From IMG/VR virus record IMGVR_UViG_3300017922_000011, positions 1 to 25,053 of that record: a stretch of 25,053 nt of DNA; one strand, written 5' to 3'. Position 1 is the stretch's first letter; every line of letters starts with the position of its first letter. This DNA comes from a virus. A program made the position numbers and the translations under genes. Under the pieces are notes generated by a model that saw nothing but the letters and a program-made list of their open reading frames with translations, did not search any database and was not told where the DNA came from. Below are positions 1,535 to 24,668 of the stretch, piece after piece.

Positions 1535-2779
1535 GTGGATGTTCAAAAAATACCGCTGTCAAAATTAAACCCAGCCAAATATAACCCCAGGAAAGACTTA
1601 AAACCAGGGGACCCGGAATATGAAAAACTCAAAAAATCCATGGAAACCTTCGGCTACGTGGAGCCAATCATCTGGAACAAACGGACCGGCCATGTTGTAG
1701 GCGGCCACCAGCGCTTAAAAATTTTGCAGGAGCAGGGCCAGGAAGAAATTGAGTGCGTGGTGGTAGATATGGATGAGCCGGAAGAAAAGGCATTAAATGT
1801 TGCATTAAATAAAGTAAGCGGCCAGTGGGATTTACCCAAACTGGCGGATTTAATCAGCGAACTGGACAGCAGCATGTTCGATGTCAGCCTTGCAGGCTTT
1901 GACGCCGCCGAAATTGAAGACCTGTTTTCCAAAGTACATGATAAAGAAGTAAAGGAAGACGACTTTGATGCAGACGCAGCCCTGGAAGAAATAGAAGAAC
2001 CCATCTCCAAAAAGGGAGATGTCTGGCTTTTAGGAAAACACAAACTGCTCTGCGGAGACGCCACCAACTTAAGCGACATTGAAAGATTGATGGAAGGTAA
2101 AAAGGCCAACCTCTGCGTCACCGACCCTCCATATAACGTTAACTATACTGCCGGAAGGGAAAAGGAAAGAACCATTAAAAACGATAACATGGAGGATAAG
2201 AAGTTCTATGAATTCCTCCTGGCAGCATTTAAGAACATCTATGCAGTCCTTGATGACGGGGCGGGAGCATACATCTTCCATGCTGATACAGAAGGATTAA
2301 ATTTTAGAAAGGCTTTTAAAGATGCAGGTTTTCACCTGGCCAATGTCTGCATCTGGGCCAAGCAGTCTTTAGTTCTGGGGAGATCCGACTACCAGTGGCA
2401 GCACGAGCCTATCCTTTACGGCTGGAAGCCAACAGGAAAACACCGCTGGTATGCCGACAGGAAGCAGACTACACTCTGGAACTTTGACAGGCCCACAAAA
2501 AGCCCGGACCACCCAACCATGAAACCGGTGCAGCTGGTGGCCTACCCCATTCAAAACAGCAGCATGACTAACTGTATTGTACTGGAGCCCTTTGCAGGCA
2601 GCGGCTCCACTATAATTGCCTGCGAGCAGACGGGAAGAATCTGCTATGCAGTGGAACTGGATGAGAAATACTGCGATGTAATTGTAAAAAGGTATATTGA
2701 AACCGCCGGGGAGGAAGAAGTTTTTCTTCTTCGAGATGGGGAGAAAACACCGCACAAAAACATTCAAAAACCAGCATAA
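1535..2779 (+). CDS. ParB-domain / DNA methyltransferase fusion
   Basis: A 414-residue protein starting at GTG, with GAGGTG upstream. Residues about 4-90 form a ParB/Srx-like domain (segments PAKYNPR and GGHQR). The rest is a beta-class amino-methyltransferase: catalytic motif IV DPPY at 197-200 comes before the SAM-binding FAGSGST at 353-359. DPPY favours N6-adenine methylation, though N4-cytosine cannot be excluded. Fusions of this kind are common in Firmicutes and other phages near the terminase genes. They may protect phage DNA from host restriction or mark packaging sequences. No cognate restriction enzyme is present, so it is an orphan enzyme. Target sequence unknown. Confidence 0.92.
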   Translation: MDVQKIPLSKLNPAKYNPRKDLKPGDPEYEKLKKSMETFGYVEPIIWNKRTGHVVGGHQRLKILQEQGQEEIECVVVDMDEPEEKALNVALNKVSGQWDLPKLADLISELDSSMFDVSLAGFDAAEIEDLFSKVHDKEVKEDDFDADAALEEIEEPISKKGDVWLLGKHKLLCGDATNLSDIERLMEGKKANLCVTDPPYNVNYTAGREKERTIKNDNMEDKKFYEFLLAAFKNIYAVLDDGAGAYIFHADTEGLNFRKAFKDAGFHLANVCIWAKQSLVLGRSDYQWQHEPILYGWKPTGKHRWYADRKQTTLWNFDRPTKSPDHPTMKPVQLVAYPIQNSSMTNCIVLEPFAGSGSTIIACEQTGRICYAVELDEKYCDVIVKRYIETAGEEEVFLLRDGEKTPHKNIQKPA

Positions 2780-2792
2780 AACCCTTGCTATT

Positions 2793-2833
2793 CCTGTGTT
2801 TTGGAGTGATATATAGACTACCAAAAACACGGG
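2793..2833 (+). other. mRNA hairpin next to a ribosome binding site
   Basis: CCTGTGTTTTGG (2793-2804) can pair, with one bulge and a wobble, with CCAAAAACACGGG (2821-2833). The 3' arm runs into GGGAGGG, the ribosome binding site of the gene starting at 2844. No T-run follows, so translation control or RNA processing is more likely than termination. Confidence 0.4.
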
Positions 2834-2843
2834 AGGGATTTGG

Positions 2844-3587
2844 ATGGATAGGAAAAACATTGTACAGGTTTTAAGTGAACATTTTCAGGTTAAACCACAG
2901 TATTTAGGAGCCCCAAGCTTTGCCTACCGGGTAGGTGATTACACCGTGGCCCGGGACGGAAGCATCGTGGATAAACAGGGGCAGGAAATGGAACTGGAAA
3001 AGCTGCTCGGAAAAACAGCACCGGCAGCAGAGGAGGAAACGGAATTGGAAACCATGACTAATCAAGAAACAGCTGAAAAGGCCCTGGAAGTACAGCTTCC
3101 CCTGGAGGGCTATCAGGGCCAAAGCCTCAAGAACCTTTTACACATGATCTACAATAAACAGCCTTTAATTAAAAAGGCCCTGGGTATTGCTACCGACCTG
3201 GTGAGTGAAGAAGTCACTGTTGCTTTAAGCCAGTCCCCGATGGTTACCCTGGAGCACTTTAAGAAAGCCATGGAAGGTAAAAGCTGCCCTGGTATTGATT
3301 TTGACTACGAGAAAGAAACCATCACTTTTAAGCTGGGCCAGGGCGGGGATGACCCGGAGAAAATAAAAGCCGCCACTCAGCTTTTAGAACTCTTAAACAA
3401 AAGCGCCCGGCAGCAGAAACGAAATGTTTCAGCTAAGGTAAAGCCTACCGACAACGAAAAGTACACCTTCAGGACCTGGCTCTTGCGCCTGGGGATGATA
3501 GGTGATGAATATAAAGAGGCCAGGAAGGTACTGCTCAAAAACCTTTCCGGCAACGCTGCCTTTAAGAAGCGGGGGCAGGTGGAATGA
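2844..3587 (+). CDS. Conserved phage protein of unknown function
   Basis: A 247-residue soluble acidic protein with GGGAGGG upstream of ATG. The N-terminus (segment VKPQYLGAPSFAYRVGDYTV) resembles proteins found beside terminase genes in many clostridial phages, which are often labelled 'virulence-related' without functional proof. A linker rich in Glu and Ala (about 50-85) is followed by a helical C-terminal part with many Lys. No catalytic motif is evident. Its stop overlaps the start of the SymE-like gene by four bases, so the two are translationally coupled. A role in packaging or host takeover is only a guess from position. Confidence 0.7.
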   Translation: MDRKNIVQVLSEHFQVKPQYLGAPSFAYRVGDYTVARDGSIVDKQGQEMELEKLLGKTAPAAEEETELETMTNQETAEKALEVQLPLEGYQGQSLKNLLHMIYNKQPLIKKALGIATDLVSEEVTVALSQSPMVTLEHFKKAMEGKSCPGIDFDYEKETITFKLGQGGDDPEKIKAATQLLELLNKSARQQKRNVSAKVKPTDNEKYTFRTWLLRLGMIGDEYKEARKVLLKNLSGNAAFKKRGQVE

Positions 3588-3818: not shown

Positions 3819-4292
3819 GTGGCGACACGGGGAAGAAAACCTAAACCAACGGAACTGAAACTGTTAGAAGGCAACCCCGGTAAACGACCGCTCAATAAAA
3901 ACGAACCCAAGCCCGAGAAAAAGGCTCCCCGCTGTCCGTCATGGCTGGAGCCGGAGGCGAAAAAAGAATGGAAACGAATGGCTAAAACCCTGGAGGCCAT
4001 CGGTGTTTTAACACAGGTAGATGCCGCTGCCTTTGCCGGGTACTGCCAGGCCTATGCCAGGTGGAAAGAAGCCGAGGAGTTTTTAAGTAAACACGGCACT
4101 ATCTTTAAAACCCCCTCGGGATATATCCAGCAGGTACCCCAGGTGTCCATCGCCCAGACATACCTTAAGGTGATGAAAGACTTCTGCAGCGAGTTCGGCC
4201 TTACCCCGGCTGCCAGAACCCGTATCCAGGTTGATGCCAGCAGCCAGGATGCAGGGGACCCCATGGAAGACATCTTAAAGGTGATGAAGTAG
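3819..4292 (+). CDS. terS: Terminase small subunit, P27 family
   Basis: A 157-residue protein that recognises phage DNA for packaging and loads the large subunit. The opening GRKPKPTELKLLEGNPGKRP is the hallmark of the P27 family. The C-terminal part is helical and ends with an acidic tail likely to contact TerL. I choose the GTG at 3819 because GGAGGTG (3806-3812) precedes it; a longer frame from 3732 would run through the terminator hairpin and carry no family sequence. The TerL start codon follows its stop directly. P27-type TerS with an HNH gene points to cos packaging. Confidence 0.93.
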   Translation: MATRGRKPKPTELKLLEGNPGKRPLNKNEPKPEKKAPRCPSWLEPEAKKEWKRMAKTLEAIGVLTQVDAAAFAGYCQAYARWKEAEEFLSKHGTIFKTPSGYIQQVPQVSIAQTYLKVMKDFCSEFGLTPAARTRIQVDASSQDAGDPMEDILKVMK

Positions 4293-5852
4293 ATGTTTGA
4301 CACAGCTAAGGCAGACCGGGCAGTTAAATTTATTCAAGAGCTTAAACACACCAAGGGCGTCTGGCACGGAAAACCCTTTGAACTCCTCCCCTGGCAGGAG
4401 CAGCTTATCCGGGATATTTTCGGCACCGTTAAAGGAAACGGCTACCGGCAGTACAACACCGCTTTTGTGGAAGTGCCCAAGAAAAACGGCAAATCCGAGC
4501 TGGCCGCTGCCGTGGCCCTTTATCTAACCTGTGCCGATAACGAGTGGGGTGCCGAGGTCTACGGCTGTGCAGCGGACAGGCAGCAGGCTTCCATTGTCTT
4601 TGATGTGGCGGTAGATATGGTGGAGCAATGCCCGGCTTTAAAGAAAAGAATCAAGCCGGTACTTTCCCAGAAAAGGCTAGTATATATGCCCCTGGGCAGC
4701 TTTTACCAGGTGCTGTCGGCAGAGTCATATACAAAGCATGGATTAAATGTTCATGGGGTAATAATGGACGAACTTCATGCCCAGCCAAATAGAGATTTAT
4801 ACGATGTTATGACTAAAGGAAGCGGCGATGCCAGGATGCAGCCGCTTTTCTTTTTAATCACCACCGCCGGAAACGATAGAAACTCCATCTGCTGGGAAGT
4901 GCATCAAAAAGCAGAGGATATTTTAAGAGGGAAAAAGAAAGACCCCACCTTCTACCCGGTTATCTACAGCATTGCTGATGATGACGATTGGACTGATGAG
5001 GCGAACTGGTATAAGGCCAACCCTTCTTTAGGCCATACCATTGATATAGAAAAGGTAAGGGCAGCATTTTTAAGCGCCAAAGAGAACCCGGCAGAAGAAA
5101 ACCTCTTCCGTCAACTTAGGCTCAATCAATGGGTCAAACAGTCTGTAAGATGGATGCCCATGCATCTCTGGGAAAAGTGTTCCTTTGCAGTTGACCCGGA
5201 AAAATTAAGGGGCCGGATATGCTACGGCGGCCTGGACCTATCAAGCTCCACTGACATCACTGCCTTTGTGTTAGTCTTTCCTCCCATACCGGGAGATGAC
5301 AAATACTATGTTCTCCCCCACTTCTGGATACCGGAGGAGAACCTGGACTTAAGGGTAAGGCGGGACCATGTGCCCTACGATATTTGGAAAAAGCAAGGTT
5401 GCTTACAGACTACTGAAGGCAATGTCATCCACTACGGCTTTATAGAAAAGTTCATCGAAGATTTATGGCTAAAATATAACATCAGGGAAATCGCCTTTGA
5501 CCGCTGGGGTGCGGTGCAGATGGTGCAGAACCTGGAGGGCGCAGGCTTTACAGTGGTTCCCTTTGGGCAGGGGTACAAGGATATGAGCCCGCCTACCAAG
5601 GAACTAATGAAATTAACCCTGGAGAAAAGATTAGCCCACGGCGGCCACCCGGTACTTTCCTGGATGATGGATAATATCCATGTCAGAACCGATCCCGCCG
5701 GTAACATTAAGCCCGATAAGGAAAAATCAACCGAGAAAATAGACGGTGCGGTGGCCCTGATTATGGCTCTGGATAGGGCCATCAGAAACGAAGATAAGTT
5801 TGACTTAAACGAATATACAACTGAGAAGATGCTGGATAAGCTCTGGGGTTAG
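4293..5852 (+). CDS. terL: Terminase large subunit
   Basis: A 519-residue packaging motor. The ATPase domain has a Walker A-like VPKKNGKS (61-68) and Walker B VIMDE (156-160). The C-terminal RNase H-like nuclease has its first acidic residue at Asp315 in GGLDLSSSTD, with a second at Asp321, and further acidic residues near the KIDGAVALIMALD segment. Length and motif order match the HK97/P27-associated group of phage terminases. The start codon follows the TerS stop with no gap, indicating tight coupling. It acts at the portal vertex, cutting concatemers and pumping DNA into the prohead. Confidence 0.96.
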   Translation: MFDTAKADRAVKFIQELKHTKGVWHGKPFELLPWQEQLIRDIFGTVKGNGYRQYNTAFVEVPKKNGKSELAAAVALYLTCADNEWGAEVYGCAADRQQASIVFDVAVDMVEQCPALKKRIKPVLSQKRLVYMPLGSFYQVLSAESYTKHGLNVHGVIMDELHAQPNRDLYDVMTKGSGDARMQPLFFLITTAGNDRNSICWEVHQKAEDILRGKKKDPTFYPVIYSIADDDDWTDEANWYKANPSLGHTIDIEKVRAAFLSAKENPAEENLFRQLRLNQWVKQSVRWMPMHLWEKCSFAVDPEKLRGRICYGGLDLSSSTDITAFVLVFPPIPGDDKYYVLPHFWIPEENLDLRVRRDHVPYDIWKKQGCLQTTEGNVIHYGFIEKFIEDLWLKYNIREIAFDRWGAVQMVQNLEGAGFTVVPFGQGYKDMSPPTKELMKLTLEKRLAHGGHPVLSWMMDNIHVRTDPAGNIKPDKEKSTEKIDGAVALIMALDRAIRNEDKFDLNEYTTEKMLDKLWG

Positions 5853-10947: not shown

Positions 10948-11247
10948 ATGAATATAACATTAAAAATAGCGGGGATGGATAAGACTTTTACAGCAGGATT
11001 TATCAGTGCCAGAATGGTGAGAAGAACTATTGAAGTATCCCGGGGAGTAAACTTTGAAAACATCTCCCCGGAAGAGCTTGATACATTAATAGACTATATC
11101 GCCGAGCTTTTCGGCAATCAATTCACCAGGGATGAACTCTATGACGGCCTTTCTTCCAAAGAACTCATACCCACCATAACGGGCTGCATCAATGAAGTTG
11201 TAGGTCAGGTGGCGGAGGCTACTTCCGGTGAGGGAAAAAAAGATTAG
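10948..11247 (+). CDS. Tail assembly chaperone gpG
   Basis: A 99-residue protein that, with its frameshifted longer form, coats the tape measure before tube assembly. It sits between the major tail protein and (after the inserted Phd/Doc) the tape measure. It ends with the in-phase slippery run at 11232-11241. Ribosomes that shift -1 there continue into the frame ending at 11414 and make a protein of about 155 residues (gpGT). GAGAGGTGAG precedes the ATG. Confidence 0.88.
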   Translation: MNITLKIAGMDKTFTAGFISARMVRRTIEVSRGVNFENISPEELDTLIDYIAELFGNQFTRDELYDGLSSKELIPTITGCINEVVGQVAEATSGEGKKD

Positions 11248-11268
11248 AGGGGGATGCCATGGCTCCCC
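11232..11268 (+). promoter_or_regulatory. Programmed -1 frameshift site
   Basis: GGGAAAA (11232-11238) lies in phase as G GGA AAA, and the next A AAA AAA (11235-11241) is also in phase. The zero-frame stop TAG follows at 11245. A stimulatory hairpin GGGGA/TCCCC (11250-11254 with 11264-11268) begins 8 bases after the A-run. There is no stop in the -1 frame until 11412. All three standard parts are present. Confidence 0.85.
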
Positions 11269-11414
11269 GGGAATTTATCGACAGGCTCTACCTGGCCCTT
11301 CTGGAAAAGGGCTGGACTATGAATGATATTGACACCATGGACATTGTTTATTACCTGAAACTGCTCAATAAAAAGCTGGATACCGAAAAAGAATATATCG
11401 ATGGGATTTTATAA
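11259..11414 (+). CDS. gpT extension of the tail assembly chaperone (-1 frame)
   Basis: The -1 frame after gpG encodes a 51-residue segment from the ATG at 11259 (the fused reading starts near 11238). It contains REFIDRLYLALLEKGWTMND and ends with TEKEYIDGIL. Its main product should be the gpGT fusion of about 155 residues. The ATG with AGAGGGGG upstream could also give a free short form. In known siphoviruses the T part recruits the tail tube subunit to the chaperone-coated tape measure. Confidence 0.82.
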   Translation: MAPREFIDRLYLALLEKGWTMNDIDTMDIVYYLKLLNKKLDTEKEYIDGIL

Positions 11415-11447
11415 GAAAAACAAACTCTTTCTATTTATTTAATTAGG

Positions 11448-11477
11448 TTGAATTTATCCTAAAATCGTGGGTATACT
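11448..11477 (+). promoter_or_regulatory. Promoter of the Phd/Doc module
   Basis: TTGAAT (11448-11453) and TATACT (11472-11477) are separated by 18 bases, in an AT-rich gap after gpT. It gives the module transcription independent of the late operon. Phd-type antitoxins usually repress such a promoter. Confidence 0.65.
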
Positions 11478-11501
11478 ATAGGTAGAAAGGGGTGAACTTT
11501 T

Positions 11502-11744
11502 ATGAAGGTAAAAATCGATAATCTGGTTTCTATTTCAGAAGCTAATCAAAACTTTTCAAAGGTAGCAAGAATGGTAGATGAAAATGGGAGCGCTGTAATC
11601 CTGAAAAACAATAAGCCTCGCTATATTTTAATCGAATACAGTCAGTTAGTAAAAGATGAAATAATTGGTGATGAAGAAGTAGATGAAATATCTAAAAAGG
11701 TACTTGCAAAACATATAAAAGCCTTTGAGGAATTGGCGAAATGA
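11502..11744 (+). CDS. phd: Phd/YefM-type antitoxin
   Basis: An 80-residue antitoxin. The N-terminal half (VSISEANQNFSKVARMVDENG) is the DNA-binding Phd fold, with the VILKNNKPRYILIEY strand pair. The acidic C-terminal helix should block the toxin. GAAAGGGGTG lies before the ATG. The stop overlaps the doc start by ATGA. Base composition is more AT-rich than in the flanking tail genes, indicating separate acquisition. Confidence 0.9.
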   Translation: MKVKIDNLVSISEANQNFSKVARMVDENGSAVILKNNKPRYILIEYSQLVKDEIIGDEEVDEISKKVLAKHIKAFEELAK

Positions 11745-12115
11745 AAAGAATTACCAAGGAACAAGTTGTAAATATGCACAGCCTTCTAATTAAAGAAACA
11801 GGCGGAAATGATGGGATTAGAGACGAAGGATTATTGGAGTCTGCTCTAAATGCACCTTTTCAAACATTTGATGGGGAAGACCTATATAAAACTGTTCAAT
11901 CAAAAGCTGCCAAGTTAGGATTTCTCCTAGTAAAGAACCATCCTTTTATTGATGGAAATAAGAGGATTGGAATATTGGCGATGCTTGTGTTTCTTGAGAT
12001 TAACGGAATTGAAGTTACTTCTACAGATGATGAATTAATAAGGCTTGGACTTAGTCTAGCTGATGGGACAATAGACGATAAAGACTTATTAGATTGGATA
12101 ATAGACCACAGTTAA
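11741..12115 (+). CDS. doc: Doc-type (Fic fold) toxin
   Basis: A 124-residue toxin. The motif HPFIDGNKR (67-75) carries the Doc-type NKR in place of the GNGR of AMP-adding Fic proteins. The GIRDEGLLESALNAPFQTF segment (25-43) is another Doc hallmark. Doc of phage P1 phosphorylates EF-Tu and stops translation, and the same reaction is likely here. It is coupled to the antitoxin by a four-base overlap. The length matches the family, so it appears intact. Confidence 0.92.
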   Translation: MKRITKEQVVNMHSLLIKETGGNDGIRDEGLLESALNAPFQTFDGEDLYKTVQSKAAKLGFLLVKNHPFIDGNKRIGILAMLVFLEINGIEVTSTDDELIRLGLSLADGTIDDKDLLDWIIDHS

Positions 12116-12243
12116 GAAAAGAGATGTTTCTGCGAAAACACGAATGTAAATAGGATGGCAAGGATATGGATGATGTAAATTAGAGCTGTGCGAAAAGCTT
12201 AAAGAAGCGGAAAAGGAATAAAAAGTGTAATTGAAAGTTTAAG
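12116..12243 (+). other. Non-coding spacer after doc, possible insertion scar
   Basis: 128 AT-rich bases without a credible gene. The last part (12185-12222) reads as a short open frame ending in ELCEKLKEAEKE and a stop, which looks like the end of a helical protein but has no start. It may be a relic left when the Phd/Doc module was inserted. Confidence 0.3.
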
Positions 12244-12269
12244 CATCTGACAATTCAGGTGTTTTTTTT
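12244..12269 (+). terminator. Intrinsic terminator between Phd/Doc and tape measure
   Basis: CATCTG (12244-12249) pairs with CAGGTG (12256-12261) with one wobble, followed by eight T. It closes the Phd/Doc transcript and lies just before the tape measure ribosome binding site. Confidence 0.65.
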
Positions 12270-12294: not shown

Positions 12295-15200
12295 ATGGCA
12301 AGTGAAATCGGGCAGTTAAACGTCAGGGTGGGTTTGGACAGCAGCGGCTTCCAAAACGGAATCAGCAGCTTAAACCGGGAAATGAAAAAGGTGCAGTCCG
12401 AGTTTAAGCTGGCCCAAAGCCAATTGGCGGGCTATGGCGAGGAACTGGACGGCTTAAAGTTAAAATCCGACAACCTCACCAAGCAGACGGAGCTGCAAAG
12501 GCAAAAGGTACAGGCCCTGGAGGCAGCCCATAAAAAGTCAGTTGAGACCAAGGGAAGAGATGCCCGGGCTACCCAGGACATGGAGATAAAACTCAATAAA
12601 GCAAGGACACAGCTTAACTATATGGAAAAGGACTTAAAGGATGTCAACCGCCAGATAGAAGTCCAGTCCTCTAACTGGTATCAGCTTGGCAAAACCCTGG
12701 AAGCTTCCGGGCAGAAAATGCAGGCTGCAGGCCAAAAGATGGAGAGTGTGGGAAGGGAGCTGACCACCAAAGTCTCGCTTCCTTTAGCAGGTCTGGGGGC
12801 TGCTGCTGTAAAGGTGGGCTCTGACTTTGAAGCAGGCATGAGTGAAGTCCAGGCCATCAGCGGTGCCGCCGGTGCTGATTTAGAAAAATTAAAGGAAAAA
12901 GCAAAAGAGATGGGAGCTACCACCAGGTTCAGCGCCGCCCAGTCAGCTGAAGCTTTAAAATACATGGCCATGGCCGGCTGGGATACCACCCAGATGTTAG
13001 AGGGTTTAGACGGCGTGATGATGCTGGCCGCAGCCAGCGGTGAAAATCTAGGTACTGTCTCCGACATTGTCACCGATGCCCTCACTGCCTTTGGCATGCA
13101 GGCCGGTGAGGCGGCAGACTTTGCCGATCTTCTCGCCAGCACCTCAAGTAAAGCCAATACTAACGTATCCATGCTCGGGGAGTCCTTTAAATATGTGGCT
13201 CCCCTTTTCGGTTCCCTGGGCTATTCCGCAGAAGACGCAGCTTTGGCTTTAGGCCTTATGGCCAATGCGGGAATTAAAGCCAGCCAGGCCGGTACCTCTT
13301 TAAGGAGTGCCGTTACCAACCTGGCCAACCCCACAGCTGCTATGGCCCAGGCTATGAATGACTTGGGACTTTCCATCACCGATGCCAATGGAGAAATGCT
13401 TCCCTTTAAAGATGTAATGGATGAATTAAGGGAAAAGTTTGCTGGATTATCCCAGGAGCAGCAGGCCCAGTACGCCGCCACCATCTTCGGTAAGGAAGCC
13501 ATGAGCGGAATGCTTGCTGTTATCAATGCCGGTGAAGAGGATTATGCCAAACTCACCCGGGCAACCAGGGAATATAGCGGGGCAGCCGAAGAGATGGCGG
13601 AGACCATGGAAGATAACCTGCAGGGGGAACTGACCAAGTTAAAGTCTGCCCTGGAAGGTGTGGGTATCCAGATATTCGAGGTACTTCTCCCCCACCTTAA
13701 CAGTCTGGTGGAGAAGATACAAGAGGTGGTAGACTGGTTTGCCAGCCTTAGCCCGCAAACTCAGGAGGCTATAGTAAAAATTGGACTTTTAGCAGCTGCC
13801 ATTGGCCCTCTTTTACTGATAGGCGGTCAGCTCATAGGCAGTATCGGCTCTATTATCGGTGTATTTAGCAAATTATCCTTAAGTGCTGCTACTGCCAGCA
13901 CCGCTGCAGGTGGAATGGCAGCGGGTTTTAGTGCTGCCGGAATGGCCGCCAAGGTTGGGGCGCTGTTACTTAACCCTTGGGTTTTAGGAATAGGGGCGGC
14001 TACCGTGGCCGGGGTAGCTTTATATAAGCACCTTCAAAAAGAAAGTATTCCCGCCGTTGAGCTTTTTGGCGACAAAGTATCAGAATCCACCAAAAAGGCT
14101 GTAGGCGGGTTTTTGGAACTAAACGATGAAGCAACTCTGGCCTTAAATCAACTCTCCTGGAGCGGCCAGGAAGTAACCAAGAAAATGGCGGATAACATCG
14201 CCGTAAATTTTTCAGAGATGGCTGATAAGGTCCAGGCTGGGCTGGACAAACACCATGAAGAGTCACTGGCTAAAATACAGGGGTTTGTAGATAACAGCAC
14301 AGCTTTATCTAAAGAAGAACAGGATGAAATTCTAAATAACCTGCATCAAGGCTATGAAAAGAGAAAGCAAAGGGTAGCCGATGGAGAGGCAAGGATAAAA
14401 GAAATCCTGCAGACTGCCTCGGAAGAAAAAAGAGCCCTAACTAAAGCAGAGCAGGAAGAGATAAATTCCATTCAAAGGGAAATGGTGGATGCGGGGATAG
14501 AGGTGCTTTCAGAAAACGAAGTGGAAGCTAAGGCCATCATGGAGCGGATGAAGGCCCATGCGGGAAAAATAACTGCCCTGCAGGCGGCGGAAGTTGTTAA
14601 AAACAGCCTCAAGCAAAAAGAAGAGTCTATTAAAGTAGCCGAGGAGCAGTGCAACGAAGTTATAAAGGAAATTATTCGGCAGAGAGATGAAGCGGGTACC
14701 ATTACCGAAGAGCAGGCCGAAAAACTTATCCGTGAAGCAACCCGCCAGAGGGATGAATCCATTAAAAGAGCAAAAGAAATGCACCAGAAGGTAGTGGAAG
14801 AAGCCAAAGCACAGGCCCAGGAACACGTAAATCAAGTAAACTGGGAAACTGGGGAAATAAAGACTAAGTGGCAGGCTATGAAAGATGATATAGCTACTAA
14901 ATCCCGTGAGATTAAAGAGGATGTCATAAACAAGTGGGAAGAAATCAAAAAAGCTACAGCTGAGAAATGGGAAAACGCAAGAGTATCCGTAGCCAATAGC
15001 TGGAGTTCCATGAAAGAAGATACAGCCGCTAAAGCCAGTGAAATTAGAGAAAATGTGATTACTACTTGGAATGAAATAAATGAGGCAACTGCTGAAAAGT
15101 GGGAAACGGTCAAAGATTCTGTAACCGATAGTATCGACATAATTAAGGATAAAATCGGTGAAGGGATAGAAAAGATTAAAGAATGGAATGCCACCAGTGT

Positions 15201-15519
15201 TAAGGAAAAGGTCTTCAGCATAGTGGAGCGCATTACCCGGGTTATCCGAACGGTAACGGGTGGCGGCGGTTCTGACAGCAACTTTCAGGGTACCAGCTTT
15301 TTCCCCGGTGGGCTGACCATGGTAGGTGAGTTAGGTCCGGAGCTGGTGGAACTGCCCAGGGGATCTCGTATCTATAATGACCAGGGAACAAAAGAAATAA
15401 TAGCCGGCCATAAAGGAATCACGCAAAACATCACCATCAACAGCCCCACTCCCCTTACCCCGGCAGAAACAGCCAGGAGAATAAAGAACGCATCCCGGCA
15501 GCTGGCCCTGGATTTGTAG
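12295..15519 (+). CDS. Tail tape measure protein, TP901 type
   Basis: A 1074-residue protein that sets tail length and reaches from neck to tip. Residues 1 to about 145 are coiled coil. A TP901-type core follows (EMGATTRFSAAQSAEALKYM and later segments, about 165-490). A long hydrophobic stretch at 494-580 may enter the host membrane during DNA injection. A charged coiled coil with Trp-containing repeats then runs to about 960. I use the ATG at 12295 because GAGGAGGTGAG precedes it; the longer frame from 12259 begins inside the terminator. By the rule of about 0.15 nm per residue, the tail would be roughly 160 nm. Confidence 0.95.
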   Translation: MASEIGQLNVRVGLDSSGFQNGISSLNREMKKVQSEFKLAQSQLAGYGEELDGLKLKSDNLTKQTELQRQKVQALEAAHKKSVETKGRDARATQDMEIKLNKARTQLNYMEKDLKDVNRQIEVQSSNWYQLGKTLEASGQKMQAAGQKMESVGRELTTKVSLPLAGLGAAAVKVGSDFEAGMSEVQAISGAAGADLEKLKEKAKEMGATTRFSAAQSAEALKYMAMAGWDTTQMLEGLDGVMMLAAASGENLGTVSDIVTDALTAFGMQAGEAADFADLLASTSSKANTNVSMLGESFKYVAPLFGSLGYSAEDAALALGLMANAGIKASQAGTSLRSAVTNLANPTAAMAQAMNDLGLSITDANGEMLPFKDVMDELREKFAGLSQEQQAQYAATIFGKEAMSGMLAVINAGEEDYAKLTRATREYSGAAEEMAETMEDNLQGELTKLKSALEGVGIQIFEVLLPHLNSLVEKIQEVVDWFASLSPQTQEAIVKIGLLAAAIGPLLLIGGQLIGSIGSIIGVFSKLSLSAATASTAAGGMAAGFSAAGMAAKVGALLLNPWVLGIGAATVAGVALYKHLQKESIPAVELFGDKVSESTKKAVGGFLELNDEATLALNQLSWSGQEVTKKMADNIAVNFSEMADKVQAGLDKHHEESLAKIQGFVDNSTALSKEEQDEILNNLHQGYEKRKQRVADGEARIKEILQTASEEKRALTKAEQEEINSIQREMVDAGIEVLSENEVEAKAIMERMKAHAGKITALQAAEVVKNSLKQKEESIKVAEEQCNEVIKEIIRQRDEAGTITEEQAEKLIREATRQRDESIKRAKEMHQKVVEEAKAQAQEHVNQVNWETGEIKTKWQAMKDDIATKSREIKEDVINKWEEIKKATAEKWENARVSVANSWSSMKEDTAAKASEIRENVITTWNEINEATAEKWETVKDSVTDSIDIIKDKIGEGIEKIKEWNATSVKEKVFSIVERITRVIRTVTGGGGSDSNFQGTSFFPGGLTMVGELGPELVELPRGSRIYNDQGTKEIIAGHKGITQNITINSPTPLTPAETARRIKNASRQLALDL
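14878..15141 (+). repeat. Two 44-residue tandem repeats in the tape measure
   Basis: Units at 14878-15009 and 15010-15141 (residues 862-949) are each exactly 44 codons. Both start with MK(D/E)D and share the pattern I(K/R)E(D/N)VI..W.EI..ATAEKWE. A degenerate earlier copy may begin near 14838. Repeat gain or loss would change tail length. Confidence 0.7.
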
Positions 15520-22326: not shown

Positions 22327-22386
22327 AACTCTAAAATCCTTAACTTTTCTTAGTAAAGCAAAGGGTAATTATTAGTGAGATATAAC

Positions 22387-22415
22387 TTGATAACCGCCCA
22401 AAGTAATTTTAATAT
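22387..22415 (+). promoter_or_regulatory. Promoter of the recombinase gene
   Basis: TTGATA (22387-22392) and TAATAT (22410-22415) with a 17-base spacer. A good GAGGGAGGG ribosome binding site follows at about 22432-22440. It allows expression of the recombinase from the silent prophage, separate from the late operon. Confidence 0.75.
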
Positions 22416-22446
22416 GCTACTAACCAATCAAGAGGGAGGGAGAAAA

Positions 22447-23304
22447 ATGCTGTTAAATCAAGCAATTAAGAGTTTTGCCAAGCACATGGAGCTTATTGAC
22501 AGGTCTCAAGAAACCATTCGGGGCTATACCATGGAACTGAAGAATTTTAATAATTTTTTAACTGTAAAGCACAACTGCCCGGTTTATGTGGAAGATATTA
22601 AATTGCAGGACATTGAGGATTACCTGCTGCATGAAAAGGAAAGGGGAATTGCCTCTGCCAGTAGAAGCCGCTCTTTGTACATTTTAAGAAGCTTTTACAA
22701 CTATTGCTGCAAAAAAGACATTTGTACCAAGAACCTGGCTAATCTTTTGGAACCGGTAAAGGTCAAGCAAAAGGAAAGAACTTATATTACCGAGGAAGAA
22801 TTTGAGGACCTTGTCAAAGCTATAACTCACCCTGTTGTTCGCACCGTGGTACAGACTATGTTTTATACCGGCGGCAGAATGTCCGAGATTATTAATTTAA
22901 AAATGGAGGATGTGGACCTGGAAAACAAAGTGCTGCACATCATTGAAGGCAAGGGCAAAAAAGACAGGGATGTACCGATTAACAATAAGCTACATGGCAT
23001 TTTAACCCATTATCTAAAACACATTAGGGAAGCAGATTCAGACCGCTTCTTTGCCATAGCCAGAACCGGCAAGGTCTCCAGCAGCTATATTAATCGCTGC
23101 ATCCATGATGCTGCACATAAGCTGGGCTGGGAAAAAAATATCAGTGCCCATGTGTTGAGGCACTCCTTTGGTACTAATTTATTGGAAAAAGGAGCTTCAG
23201 TAGTCAGTATCCAGAAACTTCTGGGCCATGCCAGCCTGGCGGTGACCACCAGATACCTGCACCAGGACACAAATAAACTCAGCGAAACTGTTAATCTTTT
23301 GTAA
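22447..23304 (+). CDS. Tyrosine recombinase / phage integrase (XerC/D-like)
   Basis: A 285-residue site-specific recombinase. An N-terminal SAM-like core-binding domain (about 1-100) precedes the catalytic domain. Active-site residues are Arg144 (TGGRMSEI), a lysine near 169-171 (GKGKKDRDVPI), His235 and Arg238 (HVLRHSFG), His261 (LLGHAS) and the nucleophile Tyr270 (TTRYLH). The ATG at 22447 lies 7 bases after the ribosome binding site; the longer frame from 22375 would start upstream of the promoter. Size is closer to Xer proteins than to large phage integrases. It most likely integrates and excises this prophage, but no attachment site could be defined. Confidence 0.93.
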   Translation: MLLNQAIKSFAKHMELIDRSQETIRGYTMELKNFNNFLTVKHNCPVYVEDIKLQDIEDYLLHEKERGIASASRSRSLYILRSFYNYCCKKDICTKNLANLLEPVKVKQKERTYITEEEFEDLVKAITHPVVRTVVQTMFYTGGRMSEIINLKMEDVDLENKVLHIIEGKGKKDRDVPINNKLHGILTHYLKHIREADSDRFFAIARTGKVSSSYINRCIHDAAHKLGWEKNISAHVLRHSFGTNLLEKGASVVSIQKLLGHASLAVTTRYLHQDTNKLSETVNLL

Positions 23305-24142: not shown

Positions 24143-24409
24143 GTGCCAACTATAAGTATGTTTTACGGAATAATTATTAGAATGTTTTGTGCTCCAGGAG
24201 AACACAACCCACCACACTTCCATGCTTATTACGGAGAATATAAGGCAATAATTGATATAAATACTTGTGAACTAAAGGAAGGGAATCTACCAAAGAAACA
24301 GCTCAAGCTAGTTTTGGCATGGGCTGAACTAAGACAGGAAGAATTATTAGCAAACTGGACTTTAGCAATGAATGGCGAACTTCCTTTTAAAATCGAGCCA
24401 CTTAAATAG
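24143..24409 (+). CDS. DUF4160 protein (possible toxin-antitoxin partner)
   Basis: An 88-residue protein starting at GTG. The opening PTISMFYGIIIRM and the HNPPHFHAYYGEY motif (His21, His25, His27) define DUF4160. The clustered histidines suggest a metal or catalytic site. Genes of this family are very often followed by DUF2442, as here, and the pair has the layout of a toxin-antitoxin or similar two-component module. No reaction is known to me. The DNA is AT-rich compared with the phage genes. Confidence 0.85.
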   Translation: MPTISMFYGIIIRMFCAPGEHNPPHFHAYYGEYKAIIDINTCELKEGNLPKKQLKLVLAWAELRQEELLANWTLAMNGELPFKIEPLK

Positions 24410-24422
24410 GAGGTGTAGATTT

Positions 24423-24668
24423 ATGTATTTAGCTGTTACAGGAGTAGAACCTTTGAGTGATTATCAGTTGCTTTTAACTTTTGAGAATGGTGAAAAGAGA
24501 ATATTTGATATGAAACCCTATTTAGATAAAGGTATTTTTAAAGAGTTGAAAGATGAGAAGAAATTTAAATCCGTCAGAGTTAGTTTTGACAGTATTGAAT
24601 GGTGTAACCAAGCGGACATTGATCCGGAAGTTTTATATGAAAAAAGCATTGCATATTCACTACAATAA
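24423..24668 (+). CDS. DUF2442 protein (partner of DUF4160)
   Basis: An 81-residue protein. AGGAGGTG lies before the ATG at 24423; a longer frame from 24372 would overlap the upstream gene. Family signs are LLTFENGEKRIFDMKPYLD, FKSVRVSFDSIEW and the closing ADIDPEVLYEKSI. It follows DUF4160 by 13 bases on the same transcript. In the proposed two-gene module it may be the binding or neutralising partner, but this is untested. Confidence 0.88.
   Translation: MYLAVTGVEPLSDYQLLLTFENGEKRIFDMKPYLDKGIFKELKDEKKFKSVRVSFDSIEWCNQADIDPEVLYEKSIAYSLQ

Follow-up and report, generated by a model that had tools for sequence, protein, structure and literature searches.

The junction between the tail assembly chaperone and the tape measure protein (TMP) gene, i.e., the gpT-TMP junction, recurrently serves as a slot for cargo, being filled with different toxin-antitoxin (TA) or defence-type genes, and in the virus studied here it holds a phd-doc pair. 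Taken as a whole, the data make it probable that this pair is a self-contained Phd/Doc moron in a recurrent slot, tolerated through a hairpin and serving the protection of the lysogen. The stretch of DNA analyzed in full, hereafter the window, is the virus record IMGVR_UViG_3300017922_000011 with 25053 bases.

The window contains a siphophage late operon with the gene order terminase, portal, protease, major capsid, connectors, tail tube, gpG, gpT and tape measure, followed by later tail genes, holin, amidase and an integrase (22375-23304). Portal, protease and capsid were named by their place in this order, their size and their tblastn matches with annotated phages. The features at the junction are the following.

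10948..11247, + strand: gpG, tail assembly chaperone, left border gene (Pfam Phage_TAC_19, 8.8e-31)
11235..11241, + strand: AAAAAAA slippery run, putative -1 gpG/gpT frameshift judged from sequence and frames
11259..11414, + strand: gpT, downstream ORF of the chaperone in the -1 frame; the cargo begins directly after its stop codon
11415..12240, + strand: entire insert as judged against empty relatives, GC 0.337
11444..11461, + strand: TAGGTTGAATTTATCCTA, conserved imperfect palindrome of 18 bp, putative Phd operator
11448..11477, + strand: promoter-like element TTGAAT-18-TATACT, 9/12 matches
11502..11744, + strand: phd antitoxin, 80 aa (PHROG 2194; Pfam PF02604 below cut-off)
11741..12115, + strand: doc toxin, 124 aa, motif HPFIDGNKR (Pfam Fic, PHROG 577, PDB Doc chains)
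12116..12240, + strand: ORF-less tail of the insert with a 16-residue stretch resembling the tail of a YefM-type antitoxin, a weak relic (score equalled in 8 of 500 shuffles)
12241..12269, + strand: terminator-like hairpin (stem 12241-12264) with T run, owned by the phage and present in empty relatives
12295..15519, + strand: TMP, right border gene (Pfam PhageMin_Tail, 3.4e-60; PHROG 1533)

For the TMP gene, the GTG at 12259 of the mechanical ORF call was dropped, as the sequence indicates the ATG at 12295 as the likely start. Megablast of the whole window against phage records gave short matches only, in three records, and a plasmid search gave a single match of 212 bases in Treponema. Outside the late genes, the minus strand encodes a ParE-like toxin (763-1053; PF15781, 7.4e-24), immediately preceded by a 146-aa ORF without a name (1056-1496), likely a second TA pair of the same record. 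The overlapping DUF4160/DUF2442 genes near the integrase (24143-24409 and 24372-24668, + strand) may form another TA-like module. A fusion of a ParB_N domain and an N6_N4 DNA methylase is encoded upstream of the terminase genes (1535-2779, + strand).

Comparison of sequences and of a predicted structure confirmed phd-doc as a type II Phd/Doc toxin-antitoxin pair with predicted activity. The genes overlap by 4 nt (ATGA), the doc ATG sharing bases with the TGA of phd, and form one operon with phd upstream. Doc matches Pfam Fic (8.6e-20) and PHROG 577 'Doc-like toxin' (1.4e-39), and its HPFIDGNKR satisfies the motif HxFx(D/N)(A/G)NKR, quoted as the Doc consensus in passages of PMC4257102 and PMC13034048. 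Compared by sequence to the PDB, Doc aligns over nearly its whole length with the P1 Doc chains 3k33, 3dd7 and 3kh2, which are outscored by 9vzc, a death-on-curing protein belonging to the E. faecalis Phd-Doc (PMC13034048). An AlphaFold model of Doc, built from 18 sequences, reached a pLDDT of 97.3 and gave five PDB matches at E<=0.001, all of them Doc, with TM scores of 0.78-0.88 and again including 3k33, 3dd7 and 3kh2. The family match of Phd is weaker than that of Doc: Pfam PhdYeFM_antitox (PF02604) scored 1.1e-6 with 28.7 bits, slightly below the cut-off of 29.8, and the match to PHROG 2194 (4.6e-31) is to a nameless family.

To place the pair among its relatives, junctions were collected from viral contigs scanned with gpG, the TMP N-terminus and gpT and from genome contigs scanned with gpG, yielding 174 gpT-TMP junctions, 87 of them distinct by the 150 bases preceding the gpT stop. 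The close clade, defined as loci with a gpT at least 55% identical, comprises 31 distinct gpT, with TMP in view for 30. In 24 of these 30 the gpT-TMP gap measures only 39-61 bp, in one (L003) a 131-bp remnant is left, and in five the gap extends over 726-1819 bp. Locus L005, on a contig that stops short of TMP, is the sixth loaded one, resulting in 6 loaded loci out of 31. At 12 other pairs of adjacent genes between terL and the distal tail genes, none of 224 instances in the close clade exceeded 68 bp (Fisher for 6/31 versus 0/224, p 2e-6, which serves as a guide only because the loci are related). The window alone carries Phd/Doc in sense orientation at this slot. These results support Phd/Doc as a late insertion and not an ancestral tail gene, and by position the pair is a moron, since the genes on either side are adjacent in relatives. 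An earlier sequence-only reading of this DNA had described a complete, AT-rich Phd/Doc module that splits the chaperone from the tape measure. Its identity as Phd/Doc is borne out by the overlapping genes, the Pfam and PHROG matches, the Doc motif and the predicted Doc fold, and its base composition by a GC of 0.337 against 0.460 upstream and 0.490 downstream. The pair does lie between the gpT stop (11414) and the TMP ATG, and searching relatives for the same insertion point upheld the insertion, the 24 empty junctions showing that the module is not ancestral to the tail cluster in close relatives. The adjacency of gpG/gpT and tape measure, nearly constant according to that reading, is not inviolate: in the close clade this is the only junction of the operon with repeated interruptions, and gp15 of HK97 is also located there.

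When the loaded state is placed on a tree built from five concatenated tail proteins, six changes are required for the six tips with cargo, or seven when the 131-bp remnant is counted. Gain and loss are indistinguishable by parsimony counts, but most of the tips differ in their cargo. Three of the loaded loci (L044, L010 and L005) are placed among close empty relatives. In a wide, loose set, gaps of at least 300 bp were found in 10/84 gpT-TMP junctions, two of which (L212 and L216) are misplaced TMP starts according to the HMM table, compared to 5/90 for TTP-gpG, 3/19 for MCP-g9074, 1/28 for g9074-g9364, 2/83 for g9364-g9683 and 1/79 for g9683-g10051. Because tblastn had put some TMP starts of the wide set in the wrong place, the HMM table and the 55% clade were used instead. 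The gpT profile matched 7 and 8 genomes in two nearly identical samples of 391 Clostridia-class genomes; these are partly genomes already in the set, and L223-L227 are counted only in the pooled wide-set table. Around the chaperone-TMP junction of seven annotated phage records no annotated TA was present; the junction of Clostridioides phage AR1074-1 holds a 72-aa ORF of no named kind, and an Oscillospirales record has unnamed ORFs before TMP. Two further observations concern the relatives themselves. The phage in L057, a record titled Mycobacteriales MAG, is close to Bacillota phages, perhaps a binning error, and in L004 (6493-7815) ~1.3 kb of sequence, possibly an intron or intein, interrupts the TMP gene, the match to the window TMP query stopping at residue 326 and resuming at 327.

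In empty relatives the gpT stop is followed by a CACCT...AGGTG hairpin with a T run and then by the tape measure ribosome site. Because these relatives carry the hairpin right behind the gpT stop, it belongs to the phage and not to the Phd/Doc module, and a terminator as a component of the module is ruled out. A hairpin with T run precedes TMP in 8 of 8 junctions of at least 500 bp and in 32 of 34 gaps of 36-80 bp; it occurs in none of 43 gaps of up to 35 bp, which is partly built in, as such gaps hardly fit a hairpin. Covariation in the hairpin is weak, with one pair showing a double change, and is not decisive. In the close clade the hairpin is thus older than the cargo, for which it would act as a terminator. 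L044 has two hairpin copies behind its cargo and L064 has kept a degenerate left copy, which hints at recombination through the hairpin.

At the other end of the insert, the 18-bp site TAGGTTGAATTTATCCTA overlaps the -35 box of the promoter-like element, whose score of 9/12 is weak by itself (7 such sites versus 3.8 expected). Allowing up to 3 mismatches, 27 of 34 distinct phd/doc loci, the window counted, have the site ahead of phd, while shuffled controls gave a mean of 0.06 matches per shuffled window. In L267 and L273 a perfect palindrome, TAGGATAAATTTATCCTA, occupies its place. We consider the 18-bp palindrome a putative Phd operator. Of the promoter and terminator that the module had been proposed to own, the promoter-like element is present, overlapped by the conserved 18-bp site, and the hairpin is the phage's. 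As a whole, the sequence-only reading is partly supported, with respect to the Phd/Doc insertion and not with respect to a module-owned terminator or an inviolate adjacency.

At least four cargo families occupy this one position among the six loaded of 31 distinct relatives, and TA or AbiE genes make up four of the six cases. The window is one of the six, with its Phd/Doc. L010 (identical in L012) and L044 both carry a Phd/YefM antitoxin with a ParE toxin (6.1e-9 and 6.6e-18 in Pfam for L010), the toxins being 74% identical. L005, the same as L056 from a Tepidanaerobacter MAG, carries AbiEi (padloc, 2.9e-68) and a 90-aa ORF. A 474-aa SLFN_AlbA_2 protein is encoded at the slot of L033 (Tissierella creatinophila, L061) and a 232-aa protein without family at that of L064. 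In L073, on a contig that begins inside an apparent AbiEi, AbiEii (3.3e-99) is followed by the hairpin and TMP. The slot of more distant phages holds a HicA toxin (6.2e-10) and further ORFs (L054), a SHOCT/DUF4429 protein (L185) or proteins without family (L109, with an N-terminus that looks lipoprotein-like by eye, and L217). The slot is probably a parking place for genes protecting the virus and its host cell, a defence role predicted here from the AbiEi and AbiEii family matches.

The 90-aa ORF of L005 (6159-6428) joins the tails of a YefM-type antitoxin and of Phd, with the DNA-binding domains of both missing. Its first half aligned to the antitoxin tail of L010 with a score of 121 and its second half to the window Phd tail with a score of 90, each reached by none of 2000 shuffles. 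AbiEi lies beside it, with no AbiEii in view. No further viral contig with a match to the chimera was found, and no Doc, ParE or AbiEii of these kinds was detected in its genome, a MAG, in which absence is weak evidence. The ORF may be a mere deletion scar. Tentatively, and as a possibility that we would not favor, the chaperone-TMP slot could be common to unrelated siphophage lineages, with TA and Abi modules swapped in either orientation and antitoxin-only relics acting as antidotes. If so, the chimera would disarm toxins found at the slot in relatives, suggesting that phages may carry antidotes to one another's modules.

A profile of the Doc family found 53 viral loci. In 22 of them, with 15 distinct doc sequences, the portal gene starts within 1200 bp downstream of the module, a placement that matches the annotation of the streptococcal phages Javan575 and Javan29; the nearest relative (L231, 64%) is among these. 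Nine loci, with 6 distinct doc sequences and from another phage group, carry the module antisense between chaperone and TMP, the latter starting on the opposite strand immediately before phd. On the strand opposite to the module, L232, L238 and L248 continue with small chaperone-like ORFs and a tail tube protein, L238 having an additional 238-aa ORF in between; the chaperones were named by size, order and eye, as the gpG and gpT profiles gave no match there. By gene order, these nine appear to be the same chaperone-TMP slot with the module reversed. Late readthrough of Phd/Doc is hence not a general requirement, as the module is antisense to the late genes in all nine. The remaining 22 loci are at another location or on contigs too short to tell. 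A ParE relative (70%) is likewise located immediately before the portal gene in L285, where the portal gene is broken into two ORFs right behind the YefM/ParE pair (3916-5159). In L231 (741-3368) terL is interrupted in frame by ~1 kb (terL matches at 792-992 and 2019-3359), the insert having an intein-like start by eye.

These data point toward a model in which a type II Phd/Doc module would have inserted behind the gpT stop codon and ahead of a terminator-like hairpin that already guarded the TMP gene. In the lysogen, phd-doc would be transcribed from its own promoter, which Phd would repress through the 18-bp site that overlaps its -35 box while also neutralizing Doc. The transcript would end at the hairpin, leaving the TMP gene unexpressed, and the hairpin would thereby make the junction tolerant of promoter-bearing cargo in sense orientation. 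This hairpin model is not general, because Doc is convergent into gpT in the antisense cases. Upon depletion of Phd, e.g., when a superinfecting phage shuts down the host or the prophage is lost, Doc would halt translation by phosphorylating EF-Tu.

Such a module might serve addiction only, in that Phd/Doc kills or arrests cells losing the prophage but does nothing against other phages. The founding case of this kind is P1 Phd/Doc, and it is P1 Doc that the predicted fold matches. Addiction is also what the authors of a Mannheimia study propose for a late-operon hicAB, in the passages of PMC4553209. The window, however, has an integrase, a prophage in the chromosome depends less on addiction than a plasmid does, and AbiE families, which are listed as defence, are also among the slot cargo. 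Addiction alone thus appears unlikely, if worth weighing. Because the slot's other cargo includes AbiE and YefM/ParE, we judge protection of the lysogen against competing phages to be likelier than pure addiction. Rather doubtful is a selfish passenger, i.e., a TA module spreading via tolerated junctions without benefit to the phage. The same Doc family does occur in at least three settings, the loaded tips are isolated on the tree, and L003 keeps only its 131-bp remnant, but the same slot is chosen repeatedly, also among unrelated tail-gene families, and the window pair has kept its reading frame, motif and operator-like site intact. That the pair is ancestral to the tail cluster and was lost in relatives is very improbable: its position is all that speaks for it, along with parsimony counts that by themselves cannot separate gain from loss, whereas every loaded tip is unlike its nearest neighbours, 24 of 30 relatives are empty and the GC of the cargo differs from that of its flanks. 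An assembly chimera, conceivable for a virus contig, is equally improbable given an insert flush between gpT stop and hairpin, as seen for unrelated inserts in isolate genomes (Tissierella creatinophila, L061).

The gpT-TMP gap becomes a site at which new TA and anti-phage genes can predictably be sought. A terminator shielding the tape measure gene from transcripts made in the lysogen offers a simple and testable reason for this position.

The closest parallel is HK97, in which the moron gp15 lies between the frameshifted chaperone gp13/14 and the tape measure gp16, as phd-doc does in the window, with a putative terminator annotated behind it; neither gp15 nor this terminator is present in HK022. 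What is known of gp15 describes it as a superinfection exclusion gene. It is a single gene, whereas the window has a TA pair, and in HK97 the terminator travels with the moron (~20 bp separate the genes in HK022), whereas the window hairpin predates the insert. P1 likewise has phd preceding doc, and its Doc resembles the window Doc in sequence, predicted fold and motif, with ~25% identity over the fold. P1 is, however, a plasmid-prophage, and its Phd/Doc is not known to lie in a tail operon. The gene table of a Mannheimia lambda-like phage lists hicB and hicA immediately before the tape measure gene (PMC4553209), a different TA family in a different phage group at a similar late-operon, pre-TMP position; the passages of that paper explain hicAB as prophage stabilization and name no slot. 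P2-type prophage hotspots, as described in parts of PMC9519451, also combine a fixed position between conserved genes with changing defence cargo, one of them between the replication endonuclease and portal genes, whereas the window slot lies inside a siphophage tail operon. A moron has been defined as flanked by a promoter and a terminator (PMC4378225), and the window has a promoter-like element and a terminator-like hairpin, the latter being older than the insert. In the titles and abstract openings of the papers that literature searches listed, the chaperone-TMP junction was nowhere described as a TA or defence slot. The arrangement is thus of a known kind, and its new features seem to be a slot with a pre-existing terminator, a cargo consisting mostly of TA genes and the occurrence of both orientations.
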